Shown: one piece after another, positions 38,166 through 40,245 of the stretch | Layout of the letters: each line of letters opens with the position of its first letter | Numbering within the stretch: position 1 is the first letter of the stretch | Origin: Sandaracinus amylolyticus | GTDB lineage: Bacteria > Myxococcota_A > Polyangia > Polyangiales > Sandaracinaceae | Assembly: GCF_021631985.1 (NCBI RefSeq) | Contig: NZ_CP070225.1 | Location: forward strand, 62,001 to 126,000 | Reading direction: 5' to 3' | Length of the DNA stretch: 64,000 bases | Made by a program: the position numbers and the translations under genes | Notes under the pieces: generated by a model | Database searches by the model: none | What the model saw: only the letters and a program-made list of their open reading frames with translations | What the model was told of the DNA's origin: nothing

Positions 38166-38693
38166 ATGTCTCCTCGATCTCGTTTCCTCGCCGCGTTCGG
38201 TCTCGTCTTCGCGCTCTCGTGCGCGGCACCATTCGTCTCGCCTCCGCGCGCGTCCGCCGACGGCCCTCTGGTCCTCGGGTTCTCCGGTGAAGGCGGCGGC
38301 TTCGTCACCGACCCACAGAGCGCGATGGGCGGCCTCGCGCTGCGCCTCGGCGTGCGCCCGATCCCGCTGCTCTCGATCTACCTGCAGAGCCACGGTCTGA
38401 TCGGCGCGCTCACCGCCGGACCGGAGAGCGGCAGCGCGCAGGGCGTGCTGTGGAACACCGCGATGCTCGGCGTGCACTTCGGGCCGCTGCACCTCGCGTT
38501 CGGTCCCTCGCTCGACTTCGCGTGGGGCTGCGACACGCAGGAGGGCTGCGTTGACGGCGACTTGCTCTTCGGCCTCGACGGGCGCGTCGCGCTCCACTTC
38601 GGAAGCCTGGTGCTCTCCGCCGACGTCCATCCGACGTGGATCGACGACGACATCGTCGTCGGTCTGGTCGGCGGCCTGGGCTGGCAGCTCTAA
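38166..38693 (+). CDS. Probable small outer-membrane or exported beta-barrel-like protein
   Basis: A 175-residue protein from an ATG at 38166. The signal peptide (MSPRSRFLAAFGLVFALSC) could end at a lipobox Cys19 or be cut after ASA at about 33. The mature part alternates hydrophobic and polar residues in strands (LGVRPIPLLSIYLQSHGLIG, HFGPLHLAFGPSLDFAWGC, RVALHFGSLVLSADVHPTW) and ends in an aromatic-hydrophobic pattern WQL, all typical of a small beta-barrel. One Cys pair (GCDTQEGC) may form a disulfide. Convergent with the next gene; their stop codons overlap by 4 bp. Confidence 0.72.
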   Translation: MSPRSRFLAAFGLVFALSCAAPFVSPPRASADGPLVLGFSGEGGGFVTDPQSAMGGLALRLGVRPIPLLSIYLQSHGLIGALTAGPESGSAQGVLWNTAMLGVHFGPLHLAFGPSLDFAWGCDTQEGCVDGDLLFGLDGRVALHFGSLVLSADVHPTWIDDDIVVGLVGGLGWQL

Positions 38694-39250
38694 GAGGCAG
38701 GGAACGACGGCGCCCAGGGCTCGTTCGCGAGCCCGGCGCCGTTCGCGACGCACGCGATCGTGCGGTACCAGCCCGCGAGCACGAGGAGCTCGACGATCTG
38801 CTCCGGGCTCCACGCGTCGGCGAGCTCCGCGCGCAACGCGTCGTCGAGGGTGGCGTGCTCGTGGAGCGCATCGACCGCCCGCACGAGCAGGCGATCACGC
38901 GGTGCGAGGTCGTCGATCGCACCGCGCACGGTCGCGCGCACCGTTGCTTCGTCGAGCCCGACGCGCGACGCGAAGAACGCGACGTGCACGCCCCACTCGT
39001 ACTCGCAGCGCGCGCGGGCCGTCGCACGCAGGATCACGATCTCGCGATCCCGCGGCGCGAGCGTCGCTCCACGCGCACCGAGCAGGACGCGCGCGAACGG
39101 GCGCATCACCTCCATCAGCGCCGGGTGGTGCGCGAAGAATCGGAAGAGCGCGAGCGGCGGGACCGGCGCGCCGCGCGGCATCATCTCGGTGAGCGCGGCT
39201 TCGATCTCGGGCGCGTGAGGGGGCGAGAGCGGAGCGGGGAAGCGCGACAT
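38690..39250 (-). CDS. Carboxymuconolactone decarboxylase / AhpD-like protein
   Basis: A 186-residue cytoplasmic all-helical protein. FRFFAHHPALMEVMRPF and DREIVILRATARARCEYEW followed by GVHVAFF form the CMD core; the Cys-x-x-Glu-x-x-x-His pattern is present while the CxxC of true AhpD peroxidase reductases is not. Such proteins are often part of oxidative or electrophile stress responses. Two 21-bp operators of the kind expected for an HxlR regulator sit 16-70 bp upstream of its start, and a matching third operator overlaps the start of the HxlR gene at 39883, so it is probably a target of that regulator. Confidence 0.87.
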   Translation of the reverse strand: MSRFPAPLSPPHAPEIEAALTEMMPRGAPVPPLALFRFFAHHPALMEVMRPFARVLLGARGATLAPRDREIVILRATARARCEYEWGVHVAFFASRVGLDEATVRATVRGAIDDLAPRDRLLVRAVDALHEHATLDDALRAELADAWSPEQIVELLVLAGWYRTIACVANGAGLANEPWAPSFPAS

Positions 39251-39265: not shown

Positions 39266-39320
39266 GTGCTACGAAATGTGTAGCGCTACGGATTCTGGAG
39301 CGCTACGGAATTCGTAGCGC
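39266..39320. promoter_or_regulatory. Two HxlR-type operators upstream of the CMD-family gene
   Basis: Two 21-bp inverted repeats: GTGCTAC-N7-GTAGCGC at 39266-39286 and GCGCTAC-N7-GTAGCGC at 39300-39320, with centres 34 bp apart. An extra half-site GCGCTAC is at 39283-39289. The symmetry and 7-bp spacer match the published YodB/HypR-type operator plan (TACT-N7-AGTA) of HxlR regulators. Confidence 0.75.
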
Positions 39321-39324
39321 ACGT

Positions 39325-39825
39325 TCAGCCGCGCTTCGCGAGCCAGTCCTTCACGGCGAGGCCGGTGCCGAAGGGCCAGGGGCGCAGCTTCGGGATCGGG
39401 ATGCGCTTGTACGCCTCGAGCTCCTCGCCGAGCGTGATCGCTCCGCGCGCCCGCACGTGCCACGTCGCGATCACCTCGTTGCGCTGCAGGAACGGGTACA
39501 CACCGACGAGCGAGACGATGTCGCCGCGCAGGCCGAGCTCTTCCTCGAGCTCGCGCAGCACTGCGTCCTCGGGGGTCTCGCCGCGCTCGAGGAAGCCCGT
39601 GACCAGCCCGAACCATCCTTCGGGCCACGCCTTCTGACGCACCAGCACGATGCGGCTCTCGGTCTCGTCCTCGCCCTCGACGTGCTCGACGATCGCGGCG
39701 ACGACCGGCAGCGGGTTGCCGTAGTGCACGAAGCCGCACGCCGGACAGCGCTTGCGCGCGCGGCCCTCGAGCGTGACCTCTTCGAGCGCGGTGCCGCATC
39801 GCAGACAGAAGCGGGCATCGTCCAT
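39325..39825 (-). CDS. NUDIX hydrolase with zinc ribbon
   Basis: A 166-residue cytoplasmic protein from an ATG at 39825. It begins with a zinc ribbon (CLRCG ... CPACGF), followed by a NUDIX domain with the complete Nudix box GFLERGETPEDAVLRELEEE carrying the metal-binding REEEE-type residues. NUDIX enzymes hydrolyse nucleoside diphosphates linked to another moiety, such as NADH or ADP-ribose. Ribbon plus NUDIX is the plan of NudC-type NADH pyrophosphatases, but this protein is shorter than NudC, so substrate is uncertain. It lies between two operator groups and diverges from the HxlR gene with 57 bp between starts. Confidence 0.9.
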   Translation of the reverse strand: MDDARFCLRCGTALEEVTLEGRARKRCPACGFVHYGNPLPVVAAIVEHVEGEDETESRIVLVRQKAWPEGWFGLVTGFLERGETPEDAVLRELEEELGLRGDIVSLVGVYPFLQRNEVIATWHVRARGAITLGEELEAYKRIPIPKLRPWPFGTGLAVKDWLAKRG

Positions 39826-39877
39826 CGGATCGCTCTCCTCGTGCGCTTGTCGCCGGCGGCACGCTCGGCGAGGATGC

Positions 39878-39898
39878 GCGCTATGAAAACCGTAGCGC
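39878..39898. promoter_or_regulatory. Third HxlR-type operator, overlapping the hxlR start codon
   Basis: GCGCTAT-N7-GTAGCGC, one mismatch from the operators at 39266-39320. The start codon ATG at 39883 lies inside it, so binding would block transcription or translation start. Suggests autoregulation. Confidence 0.7.
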
Positions 39899-40245
39899 AA
39901 CGCGGCGCACCTCGTCCGGGCCGTCCGGTGCGCGGCTCGAAGACGGGCCGCCCGATCATGGCGCTCTTCGATCTGCTCGGACGTCGCTGGGCGCTGCGCG
40001 TCGTGTGGGAGCTGCGCGAAGGACCGCTCCACTTCCGCGCGCTGCGCGAGGCGTGCGGCGGCGTGTCGCCGACGTCGCTCGCCGCGCGCATCGCCGAGCT
40101 GCGCGAGGCCGGTGTGGTCGCGGGCGAAGGAGAGGGCGAGGCCGCGGGCTACTCGCTGACCGACGAGGGACGCGCGCTGCTCGACGCGCTCGGCCCGCTC
40201 GCGGAGTGGGCGGAGGGCTGGAGCAAGCGCACCGCGAAGCGTTAG
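39883..40245 (+). CDS. HxlR-family transcriptional regulator
   Basis: A 120-residue winged-helix DNA-binding protein. LLGRRWALRVVWELREGPLH and FRALREACGGVSPTSLAARI followed by AELREAGVV match the HxlR/MarR-like core. HxlR proteins usually sense quinones, aldehydes or disulfide stress, often through a Cys; here Cys is present in ALREACGG, at the position that in some family members is redox-active. The ATG at 39883 is preceded by AGGA; an in-frame ATG at 39874 exists. An operator overlaps the start, and two more lie before the CMD-family gene. Convergent with the hydrolase gene (stop codons overlap by 4 bp). Confidence 0.9.
   Translation: MKTVAQRGAPRPGRPVRGSKTGRPIMALFDLLGRRWALRVVWELREGPLHFRALREACGGVSPTSLAARIAELREAGVVAGEGEGEAAGYSLTDEGRALLDALGPLAEWAEGWSKRTAKR

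Follow-up and report, generated by a model that had tools for sequence, protein, structure and literature searches.

Here, we found that four 21-bp inverted repeats in the window (the whole 64-kb stretch of DNA that was analyzed) are very probably operators of the adjacent HxlR regulator, which would thereby repress both a neighboring CMD-family gene and itself. The motif shared by these repeats, GCTAC-N7-GTAGC, has strong comparative evidence behind it as the predicted operator of this regulator, and hxlR, the operator, and the CMD gene appear, from genome comparison, to be an old divergent module present across phyla. The fixed operator of this module supplies an immediate prediction about a regulator subfamily; in our literature search, which covered openly licensed papers only, no paper on the hxlR-CMD operator or on this regulator subfamily was found. 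This operator reading is well supported by the sequence comparisons and of ordinary interest; its counterweight is that most other copies of the motif in the genome that holds the window (G000) lie away from promoters. Amplification of a regulator's own operator to approximately 65–70 copies, mostly at gene ends and in one genus, was unexpected and is unusual.

Four repeats around the CMD, NUDIX, and hxlR genes

The hxlR gene (39883..40245, plus strand) encodes a 120-aa protein with the Pfam HxlR domain (PF01638, 5.1e-14), whose score of 52.3 bits, against a cut-off of 20.8, identifies the winged helix characteristic of the family. The winged helix is preceded by a conserved N-terminal arm of approximate sequence TPRPGxPVRGSxTGRPIM, and the ATG at 39883 is the sole in-frame start upstream of this arm. 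The CMD-family gene (38690..39250, minus strand) encodes 186 aa with PF02627 (1.2e-07) and an EYEWGVH motif. Between the two lies a NUDIX hydrolase gene (39325..39825, minus strand; PF00293 and PF14803) whose product has a zinc-ribbon N terminus.

The earlier note on this DNA had described three matching inverted repeats, two upstream of the CMD gene and one over the hxlR start codon, with the NUDIX gene between them. All three are present where it had placed them, namely GTGCTAC-GAAATGT-GTAGCGC at 39266..39286, the exact GCGCTAC-GGAATTC-GTAGCGC at 39300..39320, with the NUDIX stop codon 4 bp away, and GCGCTAT-GAAAACC-GTAGCGC at 39878..39898, none being assigned a strand. The positions were thus right, but the count was one short, as a further unit with one mismatch, GCGCTACGGATTCTGGAGCGC (GCGCTAC-GGATTCT-GGAGCGC, likewise without strand), lies at 39283..39303, 17 bp after the first. 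The units at 39266, 39283, and 39300 overlap by their outer bases and form a single 55-bp array with a 17-bp period (39266–39320), which is bounded by the CMD start (CAT, 39248–39250), 15 bp from the array edge, and the NUDIX stop (TCA, 39325–39327, minus strand). The NUDIX gene (39325–39825) is indeed flanked by this array and by the site at 39878–39898, within which the hxlR ATG (39883) falls. The same array is found in the sister species (G001, locus L094), where every window site has its counterpart, including the hxlR-start site at position 1847 with one mismatch. Scanning the 64-kb window with up to three mismatches returned 48 matches, compared with 47.9 expected by chance, yet all seven rows with zero or one mismatch (both strands) fall at four places, 39266, 39283, 39300, and 39878; beyond these places, no match with two or fewer mismatches was found in the window, and all remaining matches have three.

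From the observed sites, footprint, and gene pairing, we infer that an HxlR dimer would bind each 21-bp inverted repeat through the half-site GCTAC, with an AT-rich 7-bp center between the halves. The array, whose near edge is 15 bp upstream of the CMD start, would cover the region directly upstream of CMD, and the 39878 site would cover the hxlR start; from this siting, HxlR is predicted to repress CMD and itself until a ligand releases it from the operators. The CMD gene is likely the main target. In this genus, where NUDIX sits between hxlR and CMD, each of these two genes would retain its own operator, and NUDIX may share the divergent promoter region.

The repeat at hxlR in distant relatives

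The window HxlR was aligned with four orthologues from a genome search, contigs from one genome per species were then scanned, and the 80 best-matching loci, beyond which further relatives exist, were retained. These best loci span Proteobacteria, Myxococcota, Chloroflexota, and others. In the 300 bp that precede hxlR, 48 of the 80 hold an exact GCTAC-N7-GTAGC and 65 a copy with no more than one mismatch, so that an inverted repeat, the predicted dimer site, is present at the regulator's own gene in most of them; the remaining 545,368 bases of the same loci hold no exact copy and nine copies with one mismatch. The spacer is equally constrained, with 80 occurrences of CTAC-Ng-GTAG upstream of hxlR at g = 7 and zero or one at every remaining g in the range 3–12. 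Fifteen of the 80 best loci, mostly from Actinobacteria, have no motif upstream of hxlR even when one mismatch is allowed, so that the operator is not shared by all relatives. Two sites 31 bp apart precede hxlR in three genomes of other genera, family- or order-level relatives (G005, G039, and G053), and account for 2/2, 2/5, and 2/3, respectively, of the W-centered motifs (A or T at the spacer center) in these whole genomes. The 17-bp tandem also precedes hxlR at three loci (L136, L146, and L150).

Of the 80 best loci, 71 have a CMD gene that diverges from hxlR, and one more has it on the other side of hxlR; among the eight best loci without CMD, two have less than 200 bp upstream of the hxlR match. 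NUDIX tblastn matches, by comparison, occur in 2 of 84 loci, those of the sister species (L094) and L154. Because CMD is divergent in so many of the best loci and NUDIX is found in these two only, the ancestral unit would comprise hxlR, the operators, and CMD, and NUDIX appears to be a local insertion outside the conserved hxlR/CMD module. The prediction of an autoregulated HxlR that also controls CMD has therefore gained comparative support, in that relatives from other genera and phyla carry the sites between hxlR and CMD, and the spacer of these sites is exactly 7.

The candidate signal of the regulator

The window HxlR resembles the MarR/DUF24 proteins (HxlR, YodB, CatR, and QsrR) in its Pfam HxlR domain and in having palindromic sites both at the gene that encodes it and at a neighbor, and its sequence matches the YodB, QsrR, and HxlR structures in the PDB. 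Unlike them, it has an extra conserved N-terminal arm, targets a CMD gene, and has no cysteine at the electrophile-sensing position. According to excerpts of the respective papers, Bacillus subtilis HxlR reacts via Cys11, the conserved electrophile-sensing cysteine of MarR/DUF24 proteins (PMC7835342), and the sensor cysteines of YodB and CatR are Cys6 and Cys7 (PMC6798810). Placed by means of HxlR Cys11 and an alignment with PA1607, this position corresponds approximately to Gly22/Arg23 of the window protein; columns 22–26 contain cysteine in 0 of 85 aligned HxlR rows, and column 23 is arginine in 84 of 85. Conservation is seen at another cysteine, Cys58, which is present in 79 of the 85 rows.

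The redox motif of AhpD is CxxC...H. The window CMD resembles the AhpD/carboxymuconolactone decarboxylase family in its PF02627 domain and in weak profile matches to CMD/peroxidase-related PDB entries, but carries EYEWGVH in place of the redox motif, and an AhpD-type CxxC is absent from the CMD in a 17-row alignment. The earlier note had proposed a response to quinone- or disulfide-type stress, and family membership, the YodB and QsrR structures among the PDB matches, and the single conserved Cys58 would fit such a role. With no cysteine in columns 22–26 and a CMD without CxxC, however, this signal is unsupported, and we consider it improbable that HxlR uses the usual thiol switch to sense stress of either kind. 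Since Cys58 is conserved, some thiol-based signal through this residue is possible.

Copies of the probable operator sequence elsewhere in the genome

G000 (10.96 Mb, two contigs) contains 69 exact copies of GCTAC-N7-GTAGC, with the consensus GCGCTACGGAWTCCGTAGCGC, often in 17-bp tandem and with a longest array of six units; 65 of the 69 were examined in context (63 in fetched loci and 2 in the window). The sister species G001 has 65 copies with A or T at the center. The dispersed copies match the operator in their arms, in a pyrimidine at −1, and in the A/T center. Random genome-wide scatter was what the earlier note had expected to count against its prediction; the motif is scattered to the extent of these 69 exact copies, but the scatter is not random.

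Gene calls were obtained with our own codon-bias caller, and the siting counts cover array loci other than two with one-mismatch sites (L072 and L073). The 44 array loci of G000 comprise 20 convergent, 11 same-direction, and 3 divergent spacers, along with 10 positions in genes, while random positions (464 kb) are convergent in 1.55%, same-direction in 10.8%, divergent in 2.8%, and in genes in 84% of cases; the convergent excess has a binomial probability of 8e-25. The 31 loci of G001 comprise 13 convergent, 10 same-direction, and 0 divergent spacers and 8 positions in genes. Called genes stop inside the array at 8 of 34 extragenic loci in G000 and 3 of 23 in G001; elsewhere, TAG is uncommon and accounts for 32 of 315 called stops. 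Two other candidate explanations were rejected. A mark of chromosome position, such as an ori/ter site, is at odds with the spacing of 43 loci, which is compatible with a uniform one (Kuiper p 0.77), and a pairing of one HxlR paralogue with each motif site is at odds with the seven HxlR-domain matches of the genome, among which only that of the window, of those listed, lies at a motif.

Conservation was assessed at 36 of the 44 G000 loci that could be aligned to G001 (seven had no fetched counterpart and one aligned weakly). The exact motif is kept at 30 of the 36, with one mismatch at 1, and is missing from 5, figures that are biased upward because the G001 loci were mostly chosen for holding the motif. 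Changes were seen at 1 of 260 arm positions compared with 97 of 558 flank positions, a comparison that is biased likewise, being made only at loci with an exact G001 motif and no more than 60 gap columns.

Among 377 Myxococcota genomes, a stricter pattern found any match in 20, with 50 matches in G000, 60 in G001, 5 in G022, and 1–2 in the others. Fifty regulator-carrying genomes, representing 50 of the best 80 loci, were compared, and 49 have zero to three W-centered sites. The exception is a Massilia MAG (G402, locus L116) with nine, two of which are adjacent and fit its hxlR operators; the other seven operator-like sites (L249–L255) lie away from hxlR, about half of them in genes, and possibly represent an independent, weaker dispersal. 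G022 also carries hxlR and CMD and has 13 sites by a looser pattern; its loci (L217–L227 and L248) include the hxlR-CMD locus and approximately eleven scattered sites, and a Y1 transposase match is present in this genome. G002, filed in the same genus as the window genome, has neither hxlR nor the motif, and both amplified genomes (G000 and G001) carry hxlR. By these counts, one genus shows strong amplification, and two further lineages may show weak parallels to it.

Origin and role of the dispersed copies

The dispersed copies show features of both an operator and a hairpin. The mean fold z score of extragenic copies is −4.8 for two-unit and −3.5 for single copies, compared with −2.5 for in-gene copies and −2.6 for the operators of relatives (base rather than dinucleotide shuffles, with the six-unit array set aside). 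The flank complementarity of single extragenic copies was reached in 1 of 2000 shuffles in G000 and 22 of 2000 in G001, the two species not being independent, and the covariation between array units was reached in 566 of 5000 and 33 of 5000 shuffles, respectively. The window array also folds as RNA (z −5.2), and since it lies directly after the NUDIX stop and folds in the manner of the gene-end copies, it could have a second role.

These properties recall published repetitive extragenic palindromes (REPs). In the sections of PMC3733652 on which we draw, REPs are found mostly downstream of genes, between convergent or same-direction genes, supply TAG stop codons, form dimers, and include some in-gene copies. 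The copies described here are likewise short palindromes, within the 20–40 bp of GTAG REPs, with gene-end siting (34 of 44 extragenic, 20 convergent), TAG stops, dimers, and some in-gene members. Published REPs, in the same sections, also carry a GTAG tag that is left unpaired and are partnered by a Y1 transposase (PMC3733652), and an excerpt of PMC2817692 gives their usual number as >100 per genome. Here, there are 69 and 65 copies, the units are symmetric with GTAG inside the stem and no unpaired tag, and the Y1 family PF01797 has no match in G000 or in G001, on which ground a resident Y1/RAYT transposase was rejected as the agent of spread. Unlike REPs, moreover, the dispersed copies have the same sequence as the operator that belongs to a conserved regulator encoded in the same genome.

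On balance, a REP-like family derived from the operator is a likelier account of the dispersed copies than a classical promoter regulon. In its full form, this would mean that the copies, perhaps together with the array at 39266–39320, are a family of 3′-end hairpins or passively spreading elements on which HxlR does not act, a reading that we hold tentatively, at somewhat less than even confidence. It accords with the convergent excess (20 of 44 loci), the gene stops inside arrays (8 of 34 extragenic G000 loci), the better folding of extragenic copies than of in-gene copies or relatives' operators, the flank complementarity beyond shuffles (1 of 2000), and the shared habits of published REPs in the sections cited (PMC3733652). 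Against it stand the transposase, tag, and copy number already mentioned and the arms, −1 base, and A/T center, all of which are as in the operator; for the window array in particular, it conflicts with the hxlR footprint. The operator identity would be readily accounted for if the sites were bound by HxlR and kept by selection, the regulator acting as a genome-wide gene-end factor, for instance as a roadblock or insulator between convergent genes. The retention of the exact motif at 30 of 36 alignable loci, the nearly unchanged arms in the biased sample (1/260 vs 97/558), and the joint presence of hxlR and amplification in G000 and G001, with both missing from G002, would agree with this. We regard it as rather unlikely, as operator identity alone does not show occupancy, a dimer needs no extra hairpin stability in order to bind, and some in-gene copies look like coding coincidence. 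The site at L033 (1462–1478), for example, reads as RYGIRS of a thioredoxin and is probably a coincidence, belonging as it does to the RYGIRSIPT segment that we take to be the usual conserved one of this family. Insertion was considered as an origin of the in-gene copies, and the copy in a TrpE-like gene (L045) falls within a variable stretch, the only gaps there relative to the PDB match being short ones. The remaining weight falls on mixtures or other explanations.

Gene-end siting and hairpin folding could also be expected of intrinsic (U-tract) terminators with a chance resemblance to the operator. None of 40 outward flanks examined at convergent loci has a T run (at least four T in eight bases), on which ground such terminators were rejected, and by rough estimate chance would produce a palindrome family sharing the arms and the A/T center with a probability of approximately 2 in 100,000, making this very improbable. 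The amplified family would allow tests of whether transcription-factor sites can give rise to palindromic repeats in bacteria and, equally, of whether a local repressor can gain a global role at gene ends. That HxlR is a genome-wide factor at approximately 45 loci, most of them gene ends in convergent spacers, marking or stopping transcription with or without an RNA hairpin, and that the spread began from the array at the NUDIX 3′ end, is an unlikely form of the latter.

Variation among arrays and gene blocks

The longest array (L060, 1454–1555; G000 contig C1, 8149553–8149654) consists of six head-to-tail 17-bp units between convergent genes, while the same place in G001 (L236) has two, revealing that the unit number changes. 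At L230 (1488–2204) of G001, an extra DUF1003 gene (PF06210) carries arrays on both flanks and is absent from the corresponding G000 locus (L064), which suggests that it was gained or lost by recombination between arrays. Finally, the same two-gene block with a gene-end site occurs on both C1 and the 210-kb contig C2 of G000 (L068 and L071).
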